Below, piece after piece: positions 5,315 to 17,225 of a DNA stretch of 17,473 bases. The notes beneath the pieces are model-generated. The model did no database searches. It saw nothing but the letters and a program-made list of their open reading frames with translations, and had not been told where the DNA came from. Every line of letters starts with the position of its first letter. Position 1 is the stretch's first letter. The stretch is from positions 1 to 17,473 of the forward strand of contig RFJF01000146.1 in NCBI GenBank assembly GCA_003695455.1, read 5' to 3'. This DNA comes from Chloroflexota bacterium (lineage in GTDB: Bacteria; Chloroflexota; Anaerolineae; 4572-78; J111). The position numbers and the translations under genes are program-made.

Positions 5315-5974
5315 TTACTTGTTTTTTGGTTTTACCTTGTACACACACGCGCCGTCGCCGTTAATCAGATGGCTTTTGCGTTCAACTTTTGCATCCAACA
5401 GGTTCTCCAACATCACGTGGTCGTAATCGCAGGCCGAGTAACAGCCCTCGGCCACGTTGATGATGGGGCAGTTGGCTTCTTTAAGAATGAACGTGTCATC
5501 TTCTCCGGGTTCCCAGGTTGACATGTAGCCGTCGGCCTCGCGCAGCCGGGTGAGCTGGTCCAACCGTTCATTCAATGTGCGGCCGGTAATCTGCGACCGG
5601 TAATTTTGAATGAGTTGCTGGGAGCGCATTCTGAAAATGGCGTCAATGGCGTCACTGCCGTACAGTTCGGTGATTGTTTCCAGCACATCGGTGGCCAATT
5701 CTTCGTAGCGGCGCGGAAAGTAGCTGTCGGCGGCTTCTCCCAGCCGGTACACAAAACTGGGCCGTCCCATACCGCGCTGAACTTCATCGTACGCTACCAG
5801 GTTGTCGCTTTCCAGCTTGGTCAGGTGGCGGCGCACCGCCACCGAACTAATGCCCAGCAGTTTGGCTAATTCATCGGCGGTGAGTTGCCCGTTTTCTTTG
5901 AGAAGCTTCAAAATTTTGCGGCGGGTGGCCGGCATTTGTTTGTGTACAAGTGTACCGTTTTCTGTTCGGGTCAT
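5315..5974 (-). CDS. sufR: SufR-like Fe-S-sensing transcriptional regulator
   Basis: This 219-residue protein has an N-terminal winged helix-turn-helix (about 19-75: [34 protein letters not shown], wing [12 protein letters not shown]). Its C-terminal domain carries four cysteines at 169, 178, 182 and 210 ([22 protein letters not shown]), positioned like the cluster ligands of SufR-type repressors. Known SufR proteins bind an Fe-S cluster and repress the divergent suf operon when clusters are plentiful. The ATG at 5972-5974 is preferred because GGAG lies 8 bases upstream; an upstream ATG at 6070 would run through the gene's own -10 box. The divergent sufC gene and the operator-like site between them strongly support the name. 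The cysteine spacing differs from the cyanobacterial pattern as I recall it. Confidence 0.88.
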
Positions 5975-6041
5975 AAAAAATGCTCCAGCAAATAAGAGGC
6001 TAAAAATCAACTTATCCAGCGAATTTACGCCGCTGGACAGG

Positions 6042-6070
6042 ATTATATCACGCATTTTTGAACTTTGCAA
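6042..6070 (-). promoter_or_regulatory. Promoter of sufR
   Basis: On the minus strand TTGCAA (6065-6070, four of six) and a perfect TATAAT (6042-6047) are 17 bases apart. Transcription would start near 6035. This start falls within the inverted repeat TCCAGCG-N9-CGCTGGA (6015-6037). Confidence 0.75.
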
Positions 6071-6189: not shown

Positions 6190-6975
6190 ATGACCTCTTC
6201 TCTCTCGATCAAAAATCTGCGTGTTAGTGTTGAGGATAAACTTATTCTCAAAGGGCTGAACCTGGAAATTGGGCTGGGCGAAGTCCACGCCATTATGGGC
6301 CCCAATGGTTCCGGCAAAAGCACCATGGCCTACTCGCTGGCCGGCCACCCCAAGTACGAAGTGGAAGGCGGCGAAGTGTGGCTTGATGGCGAAAACCTGC
6401 TTGAAATGACCCCCGATGAACGCGCCCGCGCCGGCTTGTTTCTGGCGTTCCAGTACCCAACCGCCATTCCCGGCATCAGCATGGCCAACTTTTTGCGAAC
6501 TTCGGTCAATGCCGTGAAAGGGCAGACCAACGGCAACGGCAAAAAAGGCATCCCCATCACCGAATTTCGCAAGCTGCTCAATGAAAAAATGAGCTTGCTC
6601 AAAATGGACAAAAGTTTTGCCCGCCGCTACCTGAACGAGGGTTTTTCCGGCGGCGAGAAAAAGCGCGCCGAAATTTTGCAGATGGCCCTGCTTGAACCCA
6701 AGTTTGCCATTTTGGATGAAACCGATTCCGGCCTTGACATTGATGCCTTGCGGGTTGTGTCTGAAGGCGTCAACGCCCTCACCGGCCCGGACCGCTCATT
6801 TATTGTGATTACCCACTACCAGCGCATTCTCAATTACATCAAGCCTGATTTTGTCCACATTATGTACGACGGCCAAATCATCGAATCCGGTGGGCCGGAA
6901 CTGGCTGAAAAGCTTGAAGCTGAAGGGTACGACCAACTGATTAAAGAACACGAAGCCGCACAAACCGCGGCCTGA
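6190..6975 (+). CDS. sufC: SufC, ATPase of the SUF Fe-S scaffold complex
   Basis: This is a 261-residue ABC-type ATPase, the normal SufC length. It drives conformational change in the SufB-SufC-SufD scaffold that builds Fe-S clusters. Visible motifs: Walker [10 protein letters not shown] (37-45), Q-loop [10 protein letters not shown] (Q88), signature FSGGEKKR (152-159), Walker B with the family-typical [11 protein letters not shown] (173-183), and the switch histidine H209 in VITHYQRIL. It is the first gene of a rightward operon with sufB 34 bases and sufD 1448 bases further on. AAAGGAG at 6166-6172 is unusually far (17 bases) from the ATG; a GAAG at 6182-6185 is closer. No better start is available in frame. 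Regulation by the divergent SufR is expected. Confidence 0.97.
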
Positions 6976-7009
6976 TAGTGCCGGGCGGCCACCACAAACG
7001 GAGAAAATT

Positions 7010-8422
7010 ATGGCACAGACATTTGACGTTAATCTTGATGATTATAAATACGGTTTCAGCGTGCCGGAAGATTACGCCTTTAAAGCCGAAAAAGGGCTGA
7101 ATGAAAAAATCGTCCGGCAGATTTCTGAGATGAAGAATGAACCGGGCTGGATGACCGATTTCCGGTTGCGCGGTTACAAACATTTTCTTGAGCGCCCCAT
7201 GCCCCAGTGGGGCGGCCGGGGTATGCTCAATGAAATTGATTTTGACGATATTTACTACTACATCAAACCCACCGGTGCAGACAAGGCGTTTGAATCATGG
7301 GATGATGTGCCGGAAGACATTAAAAATACCTTTGACCGGCTGGGCATTCCTGAAGCCGAACAGAAATTTTTGGCTGGCGTGGGCGCTCAGTACGAGAGCG
7401 AGGTCATTTACCACAGCATCATTGAAGACCTTGAAAAAAAGGGCGTCCTCTTTTTAGACATGGACGCCGGCTTGCGTGAACATCCGGAAATTGTCAAAGA
7501 ATATTTTGGCACCATCATTCCCCCGGAAGACAACAAGTTTGCCGCGCTGAACACGGCGGTCTGGTCCGGCGGCAGTTTCATTTACGTGCCGCCGGGGATC
7601 GAGGTGGGCCTGCCGCTGCAAGCCTACTTCCGCATTAACGCCCAGAATATGGGCCAGTTTGAGCGCACGCTCATCATTGTTGACGAAGGCGCTTACGTGC
7701 ACTACGTAGAAGGCTGCACCGCGCCCACCTACTCTACCGACAGCCTGCACAGTGCTGTGGTTGAAATTATTGTTAAAGAAAACGGCCGCTGCCGCTACTC
7801 TACCATTCAAAACTGGAGCCACAACGTTTACAACCTGGTGACCAAACGCGCGCAGGCCTACAAAAACGCCACCATGGAATGGGTTGACGGCAACCTTGGC
7901 TCAAAGCTGACCATGAAATACCCGGCGGTGTGGTTGATGGATGAAGGCGCCCACGGCGAAGTACTGTCCATTGCCTTTGCCGGCAAAGGGCAAATTCAGG
8001 ATGCCGGCGGTAAAATTGTCCACGCCGCACCCAACACCAGTTCGGTTATCACCAGCAAATCCATCAGCAAAAGCGGCGGTCGCGGCAGCTATCGTGGGTT
8101 GATCAAAGTGGCCCCCAACGCTCACCACAGCAAAAGCAACGTGGTCTGCGACGCCCTGATTCTGGACGAGGAGTCCGCATCAGATACCTTCCCTTATATT
8201 GAAATTGAAAACAACAACGTGTCCATTGGGCACGAAGCCAGCGTTTCCAAAGTTTCAGAAGAGCAGCTTTTCTACCTGATGAGCCGCGGCATCCCCGAAG
8301 ACCAGGCCGCCAACATGATTGTCAGTGGTTTTATTGAGCCAATTGTAAAAGAACTGCCCATGGAATACGCGCTGGAAATGAACCGCCTCATAGAAATGGA
8401 AATGGAGGGCTCTGTAGGTTAA
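7010..8422 (+). CDS. sufB: SufB, core subunit of the SUF Fe-S scaffold
   Basis: This 470-residue SufB-family beta-helix protein is where the nascent cluster is thought to form in the SufBCD complex. It has the typical N-terminal helical region (1-120) and beta-helix core. Candidate functional residues are C236 in HYVEGCTAP, matching the E. coli sulfur-accepting cysteine, C380 in VVCDALI, matching the SufB cysteine at the SufB-SufD interface, and H408/E409 in [10 protein letters not shown]261 is additional. A GGAG lies 6 bases upstream of the ATG. The first codons and ribosome site are identical over 18 bases to those of mrp. The stop is followed after one base by the sufD start, indicating coupled translation and equal subunit production. 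Confidence 0.97.
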
Positions 8423-8423
8423 A

Positions 8424-9797
8424 ATGGCACACCAACTCACCCGAACCCAATCAACAAAAGACGCCCTGCTCAATGCCGGAATTTTCACCAAATCTGATGT
8501 GACCGCCCTCTCCGCCCGCCTGAACGAGCCGGACTGGCTGGCCCAACAGCGGCAAACCGCATGGACAGTGTTTGAAGAAACCCCCATGCCCAGCCGCTCC
8601 GACGAAGATTGGCGGCGCACCAGCCTGCAAAAAATCAAGTGGAACAAAATGCAGCCCGCCGGTCCCTCAAGCGTGGCCCCCACCCAAAACCTGGCCGATT
8701 TGCCGGCCGATGTGCGCAGCGCCGTGGAAGAAGGTCACGCTGCCGCCGGCCGGATTGTAATTGCCAACGGGCGCGTAGTTTACTTTGAACTGGACCCGGA
8801 ACTGGCCCAACAGGGCGTTATTTTTGCCGAACTCTCTACCGCCGCCCGCGAACACCCCCAACTGGTGCAGCCGTATCTGGCCGCAGAAGCCGTGCCCCCG
8901 TCGAATGGGAAATTTGCCGCGCTCAACGCGGCGTTGTGGCAGGGCGGCGTGTTTTTGTATCTGCCCAAAGGCGTGGCGGTTGACCAGCACAAGCCGTTCC
9001 AGACCGCCTTCATTCTGGAAGGCGAAGGCAGCGTGATTGTGCCGCGCACCCTGATTGTGGCCGAAGAATCATCGGAAGCCACCTACATTGAAGAGAGCAT
9101 CTCGCACGGGGCGCACAACATTGCCATGAACGTGGGCGTGGTTGAAATTTACGCCCAGGCTAATTCGCAAATTCGGTACGTGGATGTGCAAAACTGGGGC
9201 GAAGATGTGTACAACTTCAACGTCAAACGCTCAATTGGGCAGGCTGACAGCAACGTTATCTGGGAAACCGGCCAACTGGGCGGCCGGCTGACCAAAACCT
9301 ACTTTGACAGCGTGCTGGCAGGCAACGGCTCAAACACCGAACTCAACGGCGTTTATTTTTTGGAAGGCAAACAACACCTTGATTTGGACAGCCTGCTGCA
9401 TCACATTGGCGTAGCCACCGGCGGCGATTTGCTGCTGCACGGCGCAGTCAAAGATAAAAGTCGCAGCGTGTTTACCGGTCTCATCAAAATTGACCCTACC
9501 GGCCAGCAAACCAACAGTTACCTCAAAAATGAAAACCTGATGCTGGACGAAACCGCCCGCACCGATTCCATCCCCAGCCTGGAAATTGAAGCCAACGATG
9601 TGCGCGCTTCGCACGGGGCCACCATCGGCCAGATTGACGAGGAGTACATCTTTTACCTGCAAAGCCGGGGTATTCCGCGCAACACCGCCGTACGCATGGT
9701 GGTTGAGGGCTTTTTCTACAAAGTGTTTGACCGCATGTACAACGAGCGCGTACGAGAAAAACTGTTCAGCGCCGTAACGGCCAAAATCGGCGATTAA
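8424..9797 (+). CDS. sufD: SufD, SUF scaffold subunit
   Basis: This 457-residue SufD pairs with SufB in the SufBC2D scaffold and is linked to iron entry in E. coli. The N-terminal helical part (about 1-110) is followed by the beta-helix with the landmarks KFAALNAALWQGGVFLYLPKG (163-183, a conserved scaffold segment) and the C-terminal segment RASHGATIGQID. H397 in this segment matches the histidine considered a cluster ligand in E. coli. The adjacent E. coli cysteine is alanine here (A395), and I find no cysteine anywhere in the protein. The gene starts one base after sufB with no clear ribosome site, so it depends on coupling. A terminator-like hairpin follows. Confidence 0.95.
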   Translation: MAHQLTRTQSTKDALLNAGIFTKSDVTALSARLNEPDWLAQQRQTAWTVFEETPMPSRSDEDWRRTSLQKIKWNKMQPAGPSSVAPTQNLADLPADVRSAVEEGHAAAGRIVIANGRVVYFELDPELAQQGVIFAELSTAAREHPQLVQPYLAAEAVPPSNGKFAALNAALWQGGVFLYLPKGVAVDQHKPFQTAFILEGEGSVIVPRTLIVAEESSEATYIEESISHGAHNIAMNVGVVEIYAQANSQIRYVDVQNWGEDVYNFNVKRSIGQADSNVIWETGQLGGRLTKTYFDSVLAGNGSNTELNGVYFLEGKQHLDLDSLLHHIGVATGGDLLLHGAVKDKSRSVFTGLIKIDPTGQQTNSYLKNENLMLDETARTDSIPSLEIEANDVRASHGATIGQIDEEYIFYLQSRGIPRNTAVRMVVEGFFYKVFDRMYNERVREKLFSAVTAKIGD

Positions 9798-9825
9798 TTA
9801 CGAGACGCTGCTCCTTTGAACTTGA

Positions 9826-9886
9826 GCGTGTTGCGGTGCGCGTGTCCCGATTGGCGGAGATCACGCAAGGCGCAGCACGCTTTTTT
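9826..9886 (+). terminator. Terminator or attenuator after sufD
   Basis: An outer stem GCGTGTTGCG (9826-9835) / CGCAGCACGC (9871-9880) has one wobble pair. An inner stem GCGTG (9840-9844) / CACGC (9862-9866) is also present. TTTTTT follows directly (9881-9886). It separates sufCBD from the sulfurtransferase-sufU-sufS block, and I see no promoter between it and the next gene, so partial read-through is likely. Confidence 0.7.
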
Positions 9887-9920
9887 AAAGGTTGGCGGGT
9901 AGATTGAAAGGAGACACGTG

Positions 9921-10763
9921 ATGAGCGAATACGCACACCCCGAAGCGCTGGTCAGCACAAGTTGGGTGGCCGAACACCTCAATGATGCCAACATTCGGCT
10001 GGTGGAATCTAACGAAGATGTGCTGTTATACGGCACCGGACACATCCCCGGCGCGGTCAACATTGACTGGGTGAATGATTTGAACGACCCGCTGGTGCGT
10101 GATTATCTGGACGGTGAGGGCTTTTCGCAACTGATGGCCAGCCGGGGTATCAGCCCGGATACCACCGTTATTTTTTACGGCGATAAAAACAACTGGTGGG
10201 CCTGCTACGCCTTTTGGGTGTTTCAGCTTTTTGGGCACACCAACGCCAAAGTGATGAACGGCGGGCGAGCCAAATGGGTGGCCGAAGGCCGGCCAATGAC
10301 CAAAGATTTGCCGGAATACCCCATTGCCGGCTACCCGGTTCCTGTGCGCACCGATTACAAAATTCGGGCCTTCCGTGACCAGGTGATGCACCACCTGCAA
10401 AGCGGCGGCGCGCTGGTAGATGTGCGCTCGCCGGGTGAATTCAGCGGCGATTTGCTGCACATGCCCGATTACCCGCAGGAAGGCGCGGTGCGCGGCGGGC
10501 ACATTCCCGGCGCGGCCAACATTCCGTGGGCCAAAGCCGCCAACCCCGACGGCACTTTCAAATCTGCCGCTGAACTGCGCGAGTTGTACGAAGGGCAGGG
10601 CATCACCCCGGATAAAAATGTTGTTGCCTACTGCCGCATTGGCGAACGCAGCAGCCACACCTGGTTTGTGCTCACCTACCTGCTGGGCTACCCCAGCGTG
10701 CGCAACTACGACGGCAGTTGGACCGAGTGGGGTAACTCGGTTGGCGTACCGATTGAAAAATAA
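9921..10763 (+). CDS. Thiosulfate sulfurtransferase (CysA2/SseA-like, two rhodanese domains)
   Basis: This 280-residue tandem rhodanese protein has an inactive N-terminal domain (about 10-125) and a catalytic C-terminal domain (about 145-280). The active-site loop is [12 protein letters not shown] with the persulfide cysteine at C238. The CRIGERS loop is the form I recall in mycobacterial CysA2/CysA3 and argues for thiosulfate rather than mercaptopyruvate (which usually has CGSGVT/S). It moves sulfane sulfur from a donor to an acceptor thiol in the cytosol. The ATG at 9921 is chosen because AAAGGAG (9907-9913) sits 7 bases upstream; a GTG three bases earlier is less likely. Placed between sufD and sufU-sufS, it may supply sulfur to the SUF system or to the downstream rhodanese-MoeB/CysO module. 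Confidence 0.9.
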
Positions 10764-10781
10764 AATTCAGATTGGCAGACC

Positions 10782-11210
10782 ATGACTCACAACAACCACC
10801 AGACCCCCAAAATGGACCGGCAGGGTTACGCCGAACAACTTCTGGAACACTACGAATTTCCGCGCCACTACGGCAAACTTGCCAACCCCGACATTGTTGC
10901 CCGCGGCGAAAATCCCGGTTGCGGTGATGAAATAACCATTTACCTGACCGTGGCCGAGGGTGGCGTGGTTGAGCAGGTGCAATTTGAAGGGCAGGGCTGT
11001 ACCATCAGTCTGGGGGCGGCATCGCTGTTAATGGAGATGGTGCAGGGCAAAACCCTTGCCCAAATACAGGCCCTCGACTATAATCATCTGGTTGACCGGC
11101 TGGGGCGCGATGTGGTTCTGACCCGCGTGCGCTGCGCCACACTGGGGTTGAAAACGCTCAAAGATGCAGTGCGGAAGTACTACGCCCGCCAGGTTCAGCC
11201 ATCCTCCTGA
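10782..11210 (+). CDS. sufU: SufU/IscU-like scaffold or sulfur acceptor, copy 1
   Basis: This 142-residue protein belongs to the NifU-N/IscU/SufU family. The three family cysteines are present: C47 in ENPGCGDE (with D49), C73 in GQGCTIS, and C118 in VRCATLGLK. SufU proteins take persulfide from SufS through a zinc site; IscU proteins hold clusters. The stretch between the second and third cysteines is as short as in IscU and lacks the roughly 20-residue insertion of Bacillus SufU, but the last cysteine is preceded by Arg, as in SufU, not by the IscU histidine. The ATG at 10782 lacks a ribosome site, and the ATG at 10812 (residue 11) is an alternative. It lies directly upstream of sufS, with a paralogue directly downstream of it. 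Confidence 0.85.
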   Translation: MTHNNHQTPKMDRQGYAEQLLEHYEFPRHYGKLANPDIVARGENPGCGDEITIYLTVAEGGVVEQVQFEGQGCTISLGAASLLMEMVQGKTLAQIQALDYNHLVDRLGRDVVLTRVRCATLGLKTLKDAVRKYYARQVQPSS

Positions 11211-11222
11211 TTGGAGAAAAAA

Positions 11223-12446
11223 ATGTTTGACACCCACAAAATCCGGCAAGATTTTCCCATTCTCAGCCAGCCGGCCAACGGCAAACCGCTGACCTATCTG
11301 GACAGTGGCGCCAGCTCGCAAAAGCCGCTGGCTGTCATTGAGGCCATGGACGTGTATTACCGCCAGTACAACGCCAACGTGCATCGCGGCATCTACCAGA
11401 TCAGCGAGAAAGCCTCGGCGGCGTACGAGCAGGCGCGCAAAAAAACAGGCCGATTCATCAACGCCCGCAGTTGGCGAGAGGTCATTTTTACCCGCAACAC
11501 CACAGAAAGCGTCAATCTGGTGGCCTTCAGTTGGGGGCAGGCCAACATCTCCGCCGGCGATGTAATAATTTCAACCGAGATGGAACACCACGCCAACCTG
11601 GTGCCGTGGCAGCAACTGGCCGCCCGAACCGGGGCCACCGTCAAATACATCCCCGTGACCCAACAGGGGTATCTGGATTTGGATGCGTTTGACCAAATGC
11701 TCAATTCGTCGGTGAAGCTGGTGGCCGTGACCGGCATGAGCAACGTGCTGGGAACCATTCCCCCGCTGGATGAGATTATCCGCAAGGCGCATGCCGTGGG
11801 CGCGCTGGTGCTGGTTGACGGGGCGCAGAGCGTACCCCACATGCCCACCGACGTGCAGGCGCTCGATTGCGATTTTCTGGTCTTTTCCGGCCACAAAATG
11901 CTGGGGCCAACCGGCATTGGCGTGTTGTGGGCGCGCAAGGAAATTCTGGCCGATATGCCGCCTTTTCTCACCGGCGGCGATATGATCAAAAAAGTCACGC
12001 TCAACGGCTGTGACTGGAACGACCTGCCGTGGAAATTTGAAGCCGGCACGCCCTCCATTGCCGAGGCGATTGGGCTGGGTTACGCCGTGGATTACCTGAA
12101 CGCGCTGGGCATGGACAACGTGCGCCGCCACGAGATTGAGCTGGTCAGCTACGCGCTGGAACGGCTCAGCCAGGTTGAAGGTATTCGCATTTACGGGCCG
12201 CAGGACCCGGCGGTGCGCGGCGGCGCGGTGGCTTTTACGCTGGGCAACATTCACGCCCACGACGTGTCTGCCGTCCTCGACGGCGACGGCGTGGCCGTGC
12301 GGGCCGGGCATCACTGCGCCATGCCCCTGCACGATAAGTTTGAACTGCAAGCCACCACCCGCGCCAGTTTTTATGTGTACAACACCCCGGAAGAAATTGA
12401 CAAACTGGCCCAGGGACTGGAGCGGGTCATCGAACTTTTTGGATAA
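11223..12446 (+). CDS. sufS: SufS, cysteine desulfurase (group II)
   Basis: This 407-residue PLP enzyme removes sulfur from cysteine as a persulfide, releasing alanine, and feeds the SUF machine. Key residues: PLP lysine K225 in FSGHKMLGPTGIG, the histidine of TEMEHHANLVPW near 122-123, D199 in VLVDGAQS, and the catalytic C365 in RAGHHCAMPLH, whose short loop is typical of group II (SufS/CsdA) enzymes. Length matches the family. The ATG at 11223 has GGAG six bases upstream; an upstream TTG at 11211 lies on that ribosome site and is rejected. Placement between two SufU-type genes indicates SufU-dependent, not SufE-dependent, sulfur transfer, consistent with no sufE being present. Confidence 0.96.
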   Translation: MFDTHKIRQDFPILSQPANGKPLTYLDSGASSQKPLAVIEAMDVYYRQYNANVHRGIYQISEKASAAYEQARKKTGRFINARSWREVIFTRNTTESVNLVAFSWGQANISAGDVIISTEMEHHANLVPWQQLAARTGATVKYIPVTQQGYLDLDAFDQMLNSSVKLVAVTGMSNVLGTIPPLDEIIRKAHAVGALVLVDGAQSVPHMPTDVQALDCDFLVFSGHKMLGPTGIGVLWARKEILADMPPFLTGGDMIKKVTLNGCDWNDLPWKFEAGTPSIAEAIGLGYAVDYLNALGMDNVRRHEIELVSYALERLSQVEGIRIYGPQDPAVRGGAVAFTLGNIHAHDVSAVLDGDGVAVRAGHHCAMPLHDKFELQATTRASFYVYNTPEEIDKLAQGLERVIELFG

Positions 12447-12455
12447 AATCAAATC

Positions 12456-12857
12456 ATGGACGACTTCTACAAAGAGAACATACTTGACCACTACCGCGAC
12501 CCGCGCAACGCCGGCACGCTGGCCGATGCCACCCACTCGCACGAGGAACACAACCCCCTCTGCGGCGATATTGTGCGGATTGACCTGCACGTCAACGATG
12601 ACAACGTCATTGACAAAGTAGCCTTCTCCGGCAAGGGGTGTGCCATTAGCCAGGCCAGCGCCAGCATGCTCACCGAACTGCTGGAAGGCAAAACTCTGGA
12701 AGAGGCCAAACAGATTGGCAAAGATGATATTCTGGATTTACTGGGCATTGAAATTGGCCCGGTTCGGCTCAAATGCGCGCTGCTTTCGCTGAAGGTACTC
12801 AAGGCCGGTGTGTACGGCCTGAGCGAATCCGACTGGAATGACGACGACGATTGGTAA
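12456..12857 (+). CDS. sufU: SufU/IscU-like scaffold or sulfur acceptor, copy 2
   Basis: This is the second NifU-N/SufU-family protein, 133 residues. The start MDDFYKENILDHYRDPRNAG is the classic SufU N-terminus, and ligands are C36/D38 in NPLCGDIV, C62 in GKGCAISQASASML, and C107 in VRLKCALLSL. Together these match the SufU zinc site (three Cys plus Asp). As in copy 1, the long SufU insertion is missing. The tail is very acidic (SESDWNDDDDW), a feature copy 1 lacks. It begins 9 bases after sufS without a clear ribosome site and its stop abuts the Rieske start, so translation is probably coupled. It is closer to standard SufU than copy 1, so I infer it is the main partner of SufS; copy 1 may be specialised. 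Confidence 0.92.
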   Translation: MDDFYKENILDHYRDPRNAGTLADATHSHEEHNPLCGDIVRIDLHVNDDNVIDKVAFSGKGCAISQASASMLTELLEGKTLEEAKQIGKDDILDLLGIEIGPVRLKCALLSLKVLKAGVYGLSESDWNDDDDW

Positions 12858-13175
12858 ATGATGACAGAATTTGTGCAAGTAGCTACATTGGCAGACCTGG
12901 CCCCCGGCCAGAAAATACGGGTTGAATATGATGGCGAAGACGTGGGGTTGTTCAACATCGGCGGGCAGATTTACGCCATTTCTGATGTTTGCACCCACGA
13001 TGACGGCCCGCTGATTGACGGCGAACTGGACGGCGACTGCGTGATTTGCCCCCGCCACGGGGCACGGTTCAACGTAAAAACCGGCGCGCAAACCATGCCC
13101 GCCTTCTCGCCGGCGCCCACGTTTCAGGTAAGAATTGAGGGCGATAATATACTGATTGCCCCCAACGATGATTGA
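12858..13175 (+). CDS. Rieske [2Fe-2S] ferredoxin
   Basis: This 105-residue single-domain Rieske protein has ligands C45-x-H47 (DVCTHDDGPLIDGEL) and C64-x2-H67 (CPRHGARFNVKTG). It is a soluble electron carrier like the ferredoxins of aromatic dioxygenases, with no signal peptide or membrane anchor. An additional cysteine, C61, lies between the ligand pairs. The ATG directly follows the sufU stop (a second ATG lies at 12861), so it is read as part of the sufS operon. The likely role is electron supply for cluster assembly, or a resident client; Rieske genes beside sufU/sufT are known in several bacteria. No dioxygenase genes are nearby, which argues against a catabolic role. Confidence 0.92.
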   Translation: MMTEFVQVATLADLAPGQKIRVEYDGEDVGLFNIGGQIYAISDVCTHDDGPLIDGELDGDCVICPRHGARFNVKTGAQTMPAFSPAPTFQVRIEGDNILIAPNDD

Positions 13176-13195
13176 AAATTAACATTTTACCGGTT

Positions 13196-13224
13196 GGGAG
13201 ACCCTGCGCTTTGCTCAGGGTGAC
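13196..13224. repeat. Dispersed palindromic repeat (putative)
   Basis: ACCCTG (13201-13206), a 9-base loop, CAGGGT (13216-13221), with flanks GGGAG and GACAC. I recognise this as resembling a palindromic intergenic repeat common in many environmental bacterial genomes, whose minus-strand reading gives the peptide HPEQS. The following bases to about 13270 are low-complexity CCTGA/CTCCCGA-type sequence. Confidence 0.5.
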
Positions 13225-13289
13225 ACGCCCGAAACTTCCCCCTAATTCCTGACTCCCGACCCCTGAATCCTATTTTTAAAGGAGCAAAC

Positions 13290-13607
13290 ATGGCTGAAGA
13301 AACAACTCCCGCCGCCGGCGAAGTGACCGAAGAAACCGTGCGTGAAGCCCTGCGCAGCGTAGTTGACCCGGAACTGCATCTGGATATTGTGACCCTGGGG
13401 TTACTGCGCAGCGTTAATCTTGAAACCACCCCGGCTGAGGTTAAAATGCTGCTGACCACCCCGTTTTGTCCCTACGGGCCGTGGCTGGTTCAGCAGGTCA
13501 AGGATTTTGCAGAAAAAGCCGTGGGCGGTGATGTCAAGGTTCAGGTTTTGCCCGAACAGTGGACCCCGGAAATGATGGAAGACCCCACCCTGCTGGGTTT
13601 CTTCTAA
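13290..13607 (+). CDS. MIP18/DUF59 family Fe-S maturation protein (SufT-like)
   Basis: This 105-residue stand-alone MIP18 domain has the family marks DPELHLDIVTLGL (26-38) and LLTTPFCPYGPWL with the conserved C60. The C-terminus is WTPEMMEDPTLLGFF. SufT, PaaD and eukaryotic CIA2 belong here; they help place Fe-S clusters in target proteins. AAAGGAG lies five bases upstream of the ATG. It is separated from the Rieske gene by 114 bases containing a palindromic repeat, so it may be at the end of the same transcript or have its own start. The same domain type forms the N-terminus of Mrp in this window. I leave the symbol empty because SufT, PaaD-like and other subgroups cannot be told apart by eye. 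Confidence 0.88.
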   Translation: MAEETTPAAGEVTEETVREALRSVVDPELHLDIVTLGLLRSVNLETTPAEVKMLLTTPFCPYGPWLVQQVKDFAEKAVGGDVKVQVLPEQWTPEMMEDPTLLGFF

Positions 13608-13623
13608 AATTCAATTTGACCAA

Positions 13624-13654
13624 AATTGCCGGTGCGGGTAAGATACCGGCAATT
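13624..13654 (+). other. Perfect 10-pair hairpin after MIP18 gene
   Basis: AATTGCCGGT (13624-13633) pairs perfectly with ACCGGCAATT (13645-13654), loop of 11 bases. It lacks a following T-run, so it is a weak terminator at best; it could protect the 3' end of the upstream message. Confidence 0.55.
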
Positions 13655-13725
13655 CAATCTGTCTATATCACAGAAACTTATTTGTAACTATAAGATTTTC
13701 TTATTTGAGTTGTAAAATGTTGAAC

Positions 13726-13851
13726 GTGCTGACCAACGCAATCTGTTGTTGCATCTGTTGTATGCGGGCGCGGTAGCCCCGCCCTCAATGATTGAGGGCC
13801 TGGCTGCGGCAGCCCGCATCGCCGTGTTGCAACGACGATGAGCTTCAGCAC
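13726..13851 (+). ncRNA. Candidate structured cis-regulatory RNA
   Basis: Five nested helices stack on one axis: GTGCTGA/TCAGCAC (13726-13732 with 13845-13851), GTTGTTGCA/TGCAACGAC (13745-13753 with 13828-13836, one G-U), ATGCGGGC/GCCCGCAT (13762-13769 with 13812-13819), GTAGCC/GGCTGC (13773-13778 with 13802-13807, one G-U) and GCCCTCA/TGAGGGC (13781-13787 with 13793-13799) closed by a five-base loop. Bases 13833-13842 can instead pair with 13929-13938, the 5' arm of the following terminator. This is the layout of a transcription-attenuating leader. I do not recognise it as TPP, SAM, cobalamin, T-box or another class I know by eye. A 6S-like RNA or a mobile palindromic element are alternatives. 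Confidence 0.5.
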
Positions 13852-13925
13852 CAGCAGCCACACCCTCAAATTGTACGGAACCCTTCCGGTCAGCACCCCG
13901 TCATCCACCACCGGTCTGCACCCCC

Positions 13926-13959
13926 AAACTCATCGTTGTTTCCAACGGTGAGTTTTTTT
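13926..13959 (+). terminator. Rho-independent terminator upstream of cysO-like gene
   Basis: A 13-pair stem (13926-13938 with 13943-13955, one G-U) has the loop TTTC and the run TTTTTTT ends at 13959. It lies 63 bases before the start codon of the next gene, in the position of a leader terminator. It could also end a separate small RNA. Confidence 0.85.
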
Positions 13960-14022
13960 ATTGCAGTGAAAATACCCAAACCAGGAAAATTTTAATTCCA
14001 AAATAAAGGAGTAACCATAAAC

Positions 14023-14298
14023 ATGACCACCGTACGAATTCCCAGCCCCCTGCGCCGCTACACCAACAGCCAAAGCAAAGTTCAGGCCAGCGGAGCCACC
14101 GTTCAGGAACTCATCAACAATCTGGAGGCCGAATACCCCGGCGTCAAATCCCGGCTGTGTGATGACAGCGGCCAGATTAAACGCTACGTCAACGTATTTG
14201 TCAACGGCAACGAAATCCGCACCCTGCAAGGGCCGGAAACCCCTGTGGCCGCCACCGATGAAATTTCAATTGTCCCGGCCATGGCCGGCGGCCGCTAA
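14023..14298 (+). CDS. CysO/MoaD/ThiS-like sulfur carrier protein with C-terminal GGR
   Basis: This 91-residue ubiquitin-fold sulfur carrier begins with TTVRIPSPLRRYT, has the middle segment ELINNLEAEYPGVKSRL and KRYVNVFVNGNEIR, and ends SIVPAMAGGR. The layout and several segments resemble M. tuberculosis CysO more than ThiS or MoaD (for example the RYVNVFVN strand and VPAMAGG tail). Such carriers receive sulfur as a C-terminal thiocarboxylate after adenylation of the terminal glycine. Here an extra Arg follows Gly-Gly, so a protease would have to trim it first; no protease gene is visible in the window. AAGGAG lies 11 bases upstream. The next genes encode a rhodanese-MoeB fusion and a CysM-like synthase, which supports a cysteine-biosynthesis role. 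Molybdopterin or thiamine synthesis is less likely, as no moa, moe or thi partners are seen. Confidence 0.85.
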   Translation: MTTVRIPSPLRRYTNSQSKVQASGATVQELINNLEAEYPGVKSRLCDDSGQIKRYVNVFVNGNEIRTLQGPETPVAATDEISIVPAMAGGR

Positions 14299-14315: not shown

Positions 14316-15530
14316 ATGGCTTACATTACAAGTGACCAACTGCTGGCTAAACTCCGGCAGGAAATCAAGGAAATCAGCGTGCATGAACTGGCCGACAAGC
14401 TGGACAAAGGAGAAATCACGCTGGTGGACATTCGCGGGCGCGATGAGTGGGACCAGGGCCACATCAGCGGCGCAGCCCACATTCCCCGTGGATTTCTGGA
14501 ACTGCAAATTGAAACCCGGCAGGCCAACCGCCGCAAACCCATCGCCGTGATGTGCGCCGGCGGGGTTCGCAGTCTGCTGGGCGCGCGAGACCTGCAAACC
14601 ATGGGCTACAGAAATGTGGTGTCGGTGGCCGGCGGCTTTAGCGGCTGGAAAAACGCCGGTTATCCCTTTGTGGTGCCGCGCACGCTCACCCCGGAACAAC
14701 GCAACCGCTACGCTCGCCACATTGTCATGCCGGAAGTTGGCGAAGAGGGCCAACTCAAACTGATGGATGCCAGCGTGCTGCTGATTGGCGCGGGCGGGCT
14801 GGGCAGTCCGGCGGCCATTTATTTGGCTGCCGCCGGCGTGGGCCGGATTGGGCTGGTTGATTTTGACGTGGTAGATACCAGCAACCTTCAGCGGCAAATT
14901 ATTCATCGGCTGGATGACGTGGACAAGCCCAAGGTTGAATCCGCCGCCCACACCATCGGCCAACTCAACCCGGATGTCAGCGTGATTGGCCACCGCACCC
15001 AGATTACCAGCCAGAACGCTTTCAACATCATCAGCCAGTACGATATTGTGATTAACGGCTCGGACAACTTCCCCACCCGCTACCTGGTTAACGATGCCTG
15101 CGTGCTGCTGGGCAAACCACTGGTAGATGCCAGCGTGCTGCGCTTTGAGGGGCAGGTGACGGTGTTTGATACCACCAAAGGCGGGCCGTGCTACCGCTGC
15201 CTCTACCCCGATCCCCCGCCGCCCGGCGAAGTGCCAAGCTGCGCCGAAGGCGGCGTGCTGGGCGTGCTGCCCGGCATCATCGGTAGTTTGGAGGCGCTGG
15301 AAGCCATCAAACTGATTTTGGGCCAGGGCGACCCGCTGGTGGGCCGGCTGTTGCAGTACGATGCACTCGACGGCGAATTCCGCGCACTGAACATCGCCAA
15401 AAATCCGGCCTGCCCCGTTTGCGGCGAGCACCCCACCGTGACCGAATTAATTGATTACAACCAGTTCTGCGGCGTACCCCCGGTAGAAGTTGTGTCTGCC
15501 AACGGCGCGCAGGCGGCCGTATCGGCCTGA
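14316..15530 (+). CDS. Rhodanese-MoeB/ThiF fusion, sulfur-carrier activating enzyme
   Basis: This 404-residue two-domain protein has a rhodanese domain (about 15-120, LVDIRGRDEWDQGHI, active cysteine C80 in VMCAGGVRS) followed by an E1-like adenylyltransferase (about 122-390). The latter shows the ATP loop GAGGLGSP (158-165), NLQRQ (190-194), zinc cysteines C292/C295 and C366/C369, and C309 in VPSCAEGGVLG, matching a catalytic cysteine of MoeB/MOCS3. It should adenylate the carrier protein's terminal glycine and replace AMP with sulfur from the rhodanese persulfide. In MoeZ and MOCS3 the rhodanese domain is C-terminal, so the order is reversed here. It starts 17 bases after the carrier gene, with GCGAGG just upstream, forming one operon. 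Confidence 0.93.
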   Translation: MAYITSDQLLAKLRQEIKEISVHELADKLDKGEITLVDIRGRDEWDQGHISGAAHIPRGFLELQIETRQANRRKPIAVMCAGGVRSLLGARDLQTMGYRNVVSVAGGFSGWKNAGYPFVVPRTLTPEQRNRYARHIVMPEVGEEGQLKLMDASVLLIGAGGLGSPAAIYLAAAGVGRIGLVDFDVVDTSNLQRQIIHRLDDVDKPKVESAAHTIGQLNPDVSVIGHRTQITSQNAFNIISQYDIVINGSDNFPTRYLVNDACVLLGKPLVDASVLRFEGQVTVFDTTKGGPCYRCLYPDPPPPGEVPSCAEGGVLGVLPGIIGSLEALEAIKLILGQGDPLVGRLLQYDALDGEFRALNIAKNPACPVCGEHPTVTELIDYNQFCGVPPVEVVSANGAQAAVSA

Positions 15531-15608: not shown

Positions 15609-16592
15609 ATGACAATTTTACAAGCAGTGAACCAACCCAAAGTCAGCGTGCCGCCGTTTGTGTTGGCCCGGCCCGCCGGGCGCAGCCGCCCGCTGAGCGA
15701 CACGCTGCTGTCTCGTATTGGCAACACGCCGTTGCTGCCCCTGCACAACATTGCCGCCGCCGAAGGCGTCAGCCCCAACGTGGTAGTTTTTGCCAAAGCC
15801 GAATGGTTCAACGCCAGCGGCTCGGTGAAGGCCCGGCCCGCGCTGGGCATGATTGAAGATGGCGAACGGCGCGGCCTGCTGACCCCCGGCAAAACCATCA
15901 TTGACGCCACCTCCGGCAACACCGGCATTGCCATGGCCATGATTGGCGCGGCCAAAGGCTACCGGGTCAAACTGGTAATGCCCGGCAACGTCAGCGATGA
16001 GCGCAAAAAAATTCTGGCCGCCTACGGCGCCGAACTTTTGCTGACCGACCCGCTGGAAGGCATTGATGAATCTATCCGCACCGTCCACCGGCTGGCGCAC
16101 GAAGAGCCGGAGCGCTATTTTCATCCGGACCAGTACAACAACCCCGCCAACTGGCAATCGCACTACCACTCTACCGGCGTGGAAGTGTGGGAGCAAACCG
16201 GCGGCGCGGTGACGCATTTTGTGGCCGGCATTGGCACCAGCGGCACACTGATGGGCACAGGCCGGCGGCTCAAGGATTTTAACCCGGCGGTGCAGGTAGT
16301 GGCCGTGGAACCCGCCGATGAACTGGCTATCATCGAGGGGTTGAAGCATATGGAAACCAGCATTGTGCCCGGCATTTACGACCCCGGCTTTGCCGACCGG
16401 CACATCTCGGCGCTGCCGGACGACGCGCACAATATGGCCCGGCGGCTGGCGCAGGAGGAAGGCCTGTTTGTGGGCTACTCGGCGGGAGCGGCGGCCTGGG
16501 CAGCTATTGAGCTGGCAAAATCGCTGGACGAGGGTGTGGTGATTACCCTGTTTCCGGACGGCGGCGAAAAGTATTTGAGCGTGGCTCGCTAG
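15609..16592 (+). CDS. CysM-like PLP-dependent cysteine synthase
   Basis: This 327-residue fold-type II PLP enzyme has an active-site lysine K74 in NASGSVKARPAL, the substrate loop TSGNTGI (101-107), the phosphate-binding GIGTSGTLMGTG (208-218) and YSAGAAAWAAI near 290-300. The segments DQYNNPANWQSHYHSTG and VPGIYDP resemble M. tuberculosis CysM, which takes sulfur from CysO thiocarboxylate and uses O-phosphoserine. The CysM arginine that recognises phosphate is not evident by eye (the segment reads VEPADELAI), so the acceptor could be O-acetylserine or O-phosphoserine. No good ribosome site precedes the ATG at 15609. Adjacency to the carrier and its activating enzyme is the main argument for thiocarboxylate-dependent synthesis; a free-sulfide synthase is the alternative. 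Confidence 0.9.
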   Translation: MTILQAVNQPKVSVPPFVLARPAGRSRPLSDTLLSRIGNTPLLPLHNIAAAEGVSPNVVVFAKAEWFNASGSVKARPALGMIEDGERRGLLTPGKTIIDATSGNTGIAMAMIGAAKGYRVKLVMPGNVSDERKKILAAYGAELLLTDPLEGIDESIRTVHRLAHEEPERYFHPDQYNNPANWQSHYHSTGVEVWEQTGGAVTHFVAGIGTSGTLMGTGRRLKDFNPAVQVVAVEPADELAIIEGLKHMETSIVPGIYDPGFADRHISALPDDAHNMARRLAQEEGLFVGYSAGAAAWAAIELAKSLDEGVVITLFPDGGEKYLSVAR

Positions 16593-16787: not shown

Positions 16788-17225
16788 ATGAATATCAAAA
16801 GTATTCTGGCAACCAAAGGCGCGCATGTTGTAACAATTGGCCCGGACCAACAGGTGAGGGATGCGCTGAAGGTGCTGGCAGAGCACAATTACGGTGCGCT
16901 GGTTATTGCCGATACGCAAAATCATCCCATCGGCATTATTTCTGAACGGGATATTGTGCGGCTGGCGGCCAAAAACGAGAACTGCTTCTCGGTGCCGGTT
17001 GGCGAGGTGATGACCAAAAACCTCATCCTCGGTGTGCCGCAGGATGATTTGCGGGCGGTAGCCAACACCATGACCGACCGCCGCATCCGGCACCTGCCTA
17101 TTGTGGATGACCAGGGTGTGCTGATGGGCATTGTGTCGATTGGTGATGTGGTCAAAGCCGAGCGCAACAATCTTGAAGGTGAGGCCGACACCCTGCGCCG
17201 TCAAATTCTGGCAACGGCGGTGTAA
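16788..17225 (+). CDS. Tandem CBS-domain protein
   Basis: This 145-residue protein consists of two CBS motifs (about 8-65 and 75-130), with VIADTQNHPIGIISERDIVR and LPIVDDQGVLMGIVSIGDVV as the characteristic strand-helix endings. Paired CBS motifs form a Bateman module that binds adenine nucleotides or S-adenosylmethionine and acts as an energy or metabolite sensor. No catalytic or DNA-binding domain is attached, so it is a stand-alone sensor of unknown target. A strong GGGGGGAAAG ribosome site lies just before the ATG. It has its own strong promoter and terminator, so it is expressed separately from the sulfur genes, probably at a high level. A link to sulfur metabolism is only positional. 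Confidence 0.93.
   Translation: MNIKSILATKGAHVVTIGPDQQVRDALKVLAEHNYGALVIADTQNHPIGIISERDIVRLAAKNENCFSVPVGEVMTKNLILGVPQDDLRAVANTMTDRRIRHLPIVDDQGVLMGIVSIGDVVKAERNNLEGEADTLRRQILATAV

Follow-up and report, generated by a model that had tools for sequence, protein, structure and literature searches.

A conserved cysteine-codon leader very likely acts as a ribosome-mediated transcription attenuator of CysO-MoeZ-CysM genes in Chloroflexota

The window, that is the whole stretch of 17,473 nucleotides analysed here (Chloroflexota contig RFJF01000146.1), carries on its forward strand genes for a CysO/SAMP1-like sulfur carrier protein (14023..14298; NF041918, PF02597), a rhodanese-MoeB/MoeZ-type adenylyltransferase (E1; 14316..15530; NF006444, PF00899, PF00581) and a CysM-type cysteine synthase (15609..16592). 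The last of these scored 382 bits for TIGR01138, just under the cut-off of 394.2, and exceeded the cut-off of TIGR01136; a CBS-domain protein is encoded downstream of its gene (16788-17225). In mycobacteria CysM takes its sulfur from the CysO thiocarboxylate, and therefore this gene set is most likely a cysteine-synthesis operon. Judged by the CysO gene among the best 80 of 160 loci, the closest named relatives are Anaerolineae/Anaerolineales MAGs (Chloroflexota), with a top identity of 82%. Further upstream lies a suf Fe-S gene set (6190-13607) comprising SufC, SufB, SufD, rhodanese, SufU, SufS, SufU-like, Rieske and, as the last gene, SufT-like (13290-13607), from which a winged-helix regulator gene on the reverse strand (5315-6070), SufR-like in appearance, diverges. 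The suf gene names were mostly assigned by reading the ORFs, and the profile scan covered the SufT-like, Rieske and regulator proteins.

Between the suf cluster and the CysO-MoeZ-CysM genes lies the leader element, with all of its parts on the forward strand. A promoter-like site (TTGACC-17-TAAGAT, 13616..13644) was located by pattern scan and probably belongs to the leader, with an expected transcription start near 13651. It is followed by a leader ORF of 19 codons (MLNVLTNAICCCICCMRAR-stop, 13717..13776), recognized by ORF reading and by its counterparts in relatives, which contains five Cys codons and precedes cysteine-synthesis genes; both the ORF and the promoter-like site were absent from the original prediction. 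The regulatory codons Cys-Cys-Cys-Ile-Cys-Cys occupy positions 13744..13761, and the Cys codons among them (13744-13752 and 13756-13761) sit within the 5′ strand of a long hairpin (13726-13851). This hairpin, described in the original prediction, has a minimum free energy of −70.9 kcal/mol (z −6.57; none of 200 dinucleotide shuffles equally stable). In the fold, the lower stem (13741..13839) pairs the Cys-codon strand 13741-13753 with 13828-13839. Above it stands hairpin P1 (13764..13817), identified from folds, whose 5′ arm carries the Arg-Ala-Arg codons and the stop codon of the ORF, and the consensus fold of 8 leaders contains a further hairpin, P2 (13817..13840).

The intrinsic terminator at 13926-13959 consists of 13 pairs, a 4-nt loop and a T run ending 63 bases ahead of the CysO-like start (14023), as had been predicted; it exceeded all 200 shuffles in stability (z −7.41) and was also recovered by a pattern scan that returned 3 sites in total against 3.4 expected from shuffles. 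Folding of the entire region 13700-14030 gave a z of −7.40 (0 of 100 shuffles). The postulated ten-pair alternative between 13833-13842, hereafter the antiterminator strand, and 13929-13938 in the 5′ arm of the terminator is present letter for letter, including its one G-U pair. By sequence it competes both with the terminator and with the hairpin helix using 13828-13839. The antiterminator strand is overlapped by the lower stem, which would hide it, and P2 would provide an alternative cover for it.

In order to assess the conservation of the leader, CysO genes were searched in 120 related genomes, 72 of which gave a match, and the best loci were examined; six genomes of the same family or order whose CysO matches were weaker or partial (G008, G011, G016, G020, G023 and G024) were left out. 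A leader ending in C-x-C-x-x-R-[AG]-[RP]-stop was present upstream of CysO in all 10 same-family/order loci examined. A second, named set consisted of the best 80 of 160 CysO loci and contains those 10 records again. Throughout these 80 loci (703,316 bases), the motif CxCxxR[AG][RPK]-stop occurred 14 times on the coding strand and not once on the other, 10 of the copies lying 184-539 nt before CysO and 4 at about 1.2 kb. A looser rule admitted ORFs of up to 35 codons that carry, close to their end, either C-x-C or three Cys within five codons and that lie no more than 700 nt from CysO; it detected a leader in 50 of the 80 loci, compared with 2 on the reverse strand. The 30 loci lacking a leader belong, by title, to other phyla (13), to the 1.2-kb type (4), to unassigned organisms (3) and to Chloroflexota (10: L042, L049, L065, L070, L089, L090, L098, L100, L104 and L105); among the latter, L042 has a leader with a GTG start after all, recognized in L130, whose contig has the same length, and L100 offers merely 176 nt of upstream sequence.

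After removal of L041 and L103, judged spurious by eye, 48 loci remained for the terminator count, and an intrinsic terminator was found downstream of the leader in 42 of them (5 on the reverse strand; shuffle mean 7.4). The individual parts were placed in these 48 loci and the window; L048 and L053 were dropped because they lack an antiterminator motif, and L076 because a terminator was not found in it, which left 46 loci. An earlier placement rule had located the parts in 33 of the 49, and the antiterminator positions of L061, L077, L095 and L096 were adjusted by hand. Upstream of the leader, TTGAC...TAnnnT was present in 42 of the 46 loci (window included) and in none on the reverse strand. 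The loci L032-L040 and L054 are the same records as L003-L011 and L021 and are therefore not independent. Leaders were also present in L087 and L101, which derive from MAGs named Litorilinea aerophila, a relative available in culture. Altogether, the leader is conserved among orthologous loci, and the lack of conservation that would have spoken against the original prediction was not observed.

Pairwise comparison of 12 related Caldilineaceae leaders gave 44, 127 and 220 differences at the first, second and third codon positions (4, 6 and 7 variable columns, respectively), and this third-position excess is as would be expected for a translated ORF. A frame test, with 46 of 46 leaders in frame and 0 in other frames, was set aside as evidence, because the loci had been chosen by that same frame and the test is circular. 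The Arg-Ala-Arg tail was considered as an amino-acid signal and rejected, since its CGG GCG codons coincide with the GCGGGCG arm of P1 and many Caldilineaceae leaders end sooner, with TAG at the same place.

Some loci deviate from this arrangement. In L057, L074, L081 and L106 only about 9 nt lie between the end of a promoter-like site (TTGACA-TACACT) and the ATG of the leader, whose transcript may thus have little or no 5′ untranslated sequence; leaderless transcription has reportedly been described for mycobacterial polycysteine ORFs. In L005 (identical to L035; genome G009) the attenuator terminator and CysO lie further apart, owing to about 250 nt of extra intergenic DNA that contains additional inverted repeats. 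An Ardenticatenaceae-type variant lies about 1.2 kb upstream of CysO in L047, L067, L075 and L084, and the same leader occurs in L016, L018 and L022. It ends in RCICIRRGR-stop ahead of a rhodanese-CysO-MoeZ-CysM set. Its stop codon is covered by a GCGGGGGCGTTAGCC hairpin, a GCCACCGTCGGCC-T-run follows at a distance, and its switching logic looks different.

The original prediction left the choice between an attenuator and a new riboswitch. A metabolite-binding riboswitch for cysteine, O-acetylserine or another sulfur compound could act through the same hairpins, the ORF being a by-product of the stem, and such a reading would account for a stable and conserved hairpin with terminator and alternative pairing as well as for conservation at the nucleotide level at some positions (TGC-NNN-TGT, GCGGG). 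What is conserved, however, is an ORF that carries C-x-C close to the stop codon and whose Cys codons pair with the antiterminator strand; C-x-C is retained in orthologous leaders while the remaining peptide, including the residues flanking C-x-C, and the distance to the stop codon vary. Moreover, a conserved unpaired core was not seen outside the stems. The Rfam scan proposed as a check gave no match for the window at gathering level, and for 13600-14030 the best E value was 0.98, with neither a riboswitch nor a T-box among the 7 matches up to E 10. A riboswitch is therefore very unlikely. Since the strand hiding the antiterminator contains the Cys codons, attenuation by a ribosome that responds to Cys-tRNA is the most likely mechanism. 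Of the original prediction, both the term attenuator and the proposal of a sulfur-related signal, for instance cysteine, thus have good support.

Covariation, which had been suggested as a further check, was analysed in an alignment of 31 more distant loci with short P1 (30 distinct rows), the group of the window being counted separately. In these distant relatives 80.6% of the cells of the Cys-codon stem were paired, a value reached by 2 of 500 shuffles, both-sided changes were found in 4 of 9 pairs (7 of 500 shuffles), and the covariation score of 0.201 exceeded the shuffles (0.153, sd 0.014; 0 of 500) and all slid versions of the stem, although related sequences can surpass such shuffles even without structure. 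In the closest group, formed by the window and the 7 leaders most similar to it, P1 and P2 were retained in 97.6% of cells, with no covariation excess (160 of 500 shuffles). Excess covariation was thus found for the Cys-codon stem in the more distant relatives and not for P1 and P2 within the closest group.

The fit between the pairing partners was additionally examined by permuting strands among 18 loci less than 75% alike. The Cys-codon strand paired more stably in its own locus (−13.8 kcal/mol) than after permutation (−11.1 kcal/mol, sd 0.65; 2 of 20,000 permutations), and so did the antiterminator with its own terminator (−15.5 versus −12.9 kcal/mol, sd 0.59; 0 of 20,000). In a rerun with 17 loci (L055 dropped), in which the antiterminator was picked blind to the terminator, the corresponding counts were 6 and 4 of 20,000; a control pairing not expected to form also beat permutation (79 of 20,000), and relatedness therefore accounts for part of the signal.

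These results bear on the reading that the terminator is secondary and the leader peptide acts, as has been suggested in Actinobacteria, through Rho or through coupling of translation. Cys leader ORFs lacking terminators have indeed been predicted for Mycobacterium, Propionibacterium acnes and Bifidobacterium longum, where they precede cys operons, according to the available part of that study (PMC1262725). Here, in contrast, an intrinsic terminator accompanies most of the leaders, the antiterminator pairs better with the terminator of its own locus than with those of other loci, and in the window 246 bases separate the leader stop codon from the CysO start, all of which makes coupling or Rho very improbable as the main mechanism in comparison with ribosome-mediated attenuation.

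In order to determine the distribution of the element, two covariance models were built. Model R1, representing the group of the window, was run on 298 genomes of the class and found one site in each of 8, of which 7 had served to train it; model R2, representing the more distant group, found 36 sites in 35 of the 298 genomes. Downstream genes were inspected for 38 of the 44 sites (8 R1 sites and 30 of the 36 R2 sites), their names being based solely on BLAST comparison with ten proteins of the window. All 38 precede either a CysO/MoeZ gene (27) or a cysteine-synthase gene (11), the latter 40-75% identical to CysM of the window. Some of the CysO-linked R2 sites had trained the models, and none of the 11 cysteine-synthase-linked sites had. 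An in-frame leader around C-x-C was present at 37 of the 38 sites; it was absent from L140, and L130, L141 and L144 have a non-ATG start only. In genome G005, of the same family and with no CysO match, the same leader stands directly before CysM (L116), which suggests that the attenuator follows cysteine synthesis rather than CysO.

The presence of C-x-C in nearly all leaders, even in those with just two Cys codons, would also fit a nascent C-x-C peptide that itself arrests the ribosome on a metal or sulfur species. Known arrest peptides are not reported to vary widely in this way, unlike the residues before and after C-x-C in these leaders; pairing with the antiterminator strand also explains TGC-NNN-TGT, and the linkage to cysteine genes at every inspected site argues against such an arrest, which appears highly improbable. 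A reading with no regulation at all, in which the element is a mobile hairpin or simply a suf terminator with read-through, would agree with the position of the element next to the SufT-like gene, on its downstream side, in the window and several close relatives, but is practically negligible given that its own genome (4.38 Mb, 87% complete) contains a single match, the element itself, and none of the further copies that the original prediction had considered as a sign of a mobile repeat, that in other families the sites precede CysO or cysteine-synthase genes, and that a promoter-like site lies upstream of the leader.

For the attenuator reading, the effect of ribosome position was modelled by folding the transcript up to the 5′ arm of the terminator with a ribosome-sized stretch masked; such folds describe an equilibrium of truncated RNA and are a rough guide only. 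In a first run on the 46 loci, the ribosome was placed on the last C-x-C, and the window showed no switching. The first Cys codon was used thereafter, because a starved ribosome should halt there first. In the RNA of the window the modelled number of antiterminator pairs rose from 0.0 with no ribosome to 10.8 when the first Cys codon was occupied, and was again 0.0 when the stop codon was; these values were nearly unchanged over three assumed leading edges of the ribosome. When the codons were scanned one by one, the four codons before the Cys run and the first Cys codon gave the ON state (0.89-0.99 of the arm paired), and stalls at the second to fifth Cys codon gave OFF (at most 0.06). Across the 46 loci, a stall at the first Cys codon increased the antiterminator pairing over that with no ribosome in 26 (reverse in 0) and over that at the stop position in 19 (reverse in 1); for the 18 non-redundant loci the respective numbers were 9 (reverse 0) and 4 (reverse 1). 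The remaining loci changed little, being ON or OFF at every tested position, or switched in one comparison only.

Taken together, sequence comparison and modelling make it very likely that the element is a ribosome-mediated transcription attenuator which controls the CysO-MoeZ-CysM genes by Cys-tRNA supply. RNA polymerase would start near 13651 and a ribosome would translate the 19-codon leader. With ample cysteine, the ribosome would pass the Cys codons and reach the stop codon within P1, leaving the antiterminator strand covered in P2; with no ribosome, this strand would be covered by the stem with the Cys codons. In both situations the terminator (13926-13955) would form and transcription would end. 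When Cys-tRNA is scarce, the ribosome would halt at the first Cys codon (13744) and keep the Cys-codon strand from the stem, so that 13833-13842 would be free to pair with 13929-13938, no terminator would form and the operon would be read. Leader translation, stalling, termination and the cysteine response are all four what we infer from the ORF, the competing pairings, the conservation of leader and terminator, the covariation of the Cys-codon stem in relatives and the linkage to cysteine genes. In a leader conserved across much of the class, the nascent C-x-C peptide might, by metal binding or reaction with sulfide, tune the stalling beyond Cys-tRNA supply. This addition is a long shot; if true, cysteine synthesis by the CysO route would respond not just to cysteine but also to the state of sulfur or metal.

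The trp and his attenuators likewise combine a leader peptide rich in codons of the end product with mutually exclusive pairings, and stalling leads to read-through. The present leader shares these properties and differs from them in that the regulatory codons themselves form the strand hiding the antiterminator, as well as in amino acid and organism. Mycobacterial polycysteine leader ORFs before cysteine genes are said to have been described by Canestrari et al. in 2020. In the available part of PMC1262725, from 2005, Cys-codon leader ORFs are predicted for Mycobacterium and Propionibacterium acnes, upstream of cys operons, and for Bifidobacterium longum, upstream of cbs; these too are short ORFs with runs of Cys codons near the stop, upstream of cysteine genes, and that study found no conservation of terminator hairpins for them, unlike the conserved terminator and antiterminator found here. 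The nearest known system in mechanism, as far as the available part of PMC8632094 describes it, is the uORFC-8-2 motif, located before cysS in Rhodobacterales and proposed to act by ribosome-mediated attenuation through Cys-tRNA. Both have a short ORF, Cys codons in the first stem (two in uORFC-8-2) and an intrinsic terminator; uORFC-8-2 has tandem Cys codons and its own structure model, and its target is cysteinyl-tRNA synthetase in another phylum rather than cysteine synthesis. Membership of the present leader in uORFC-8-2 was rejected, since the downstream gene is CysO and not cysS and the C-x-C leaders contain no obligatory tandem Cys.

A cysteine leader is not named in the available parts of a Streptomyces leader-peptide table and of a premature-terminator survey, and searches of open-licence PMC papers gave no account of such peptides from Chloroflexi/Chloroflexota or upstream of cysO. 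The element is widely conserved and most likely new to Chloroflexota, Cys leader peptides as such being already known. Beside Actinobacteria and Rhodobacterales it adds a further setting of such peptides, and with the two covariance models the element and its target genes can be annotated. For a large, mostly uncultured bacterial group, it supplies a cis-regulatory RNA of which no description was found, and it would mark the CysO-MoeZ-CysM route as a cysteine source under cysteine feedback in this group of Chloroflexota.
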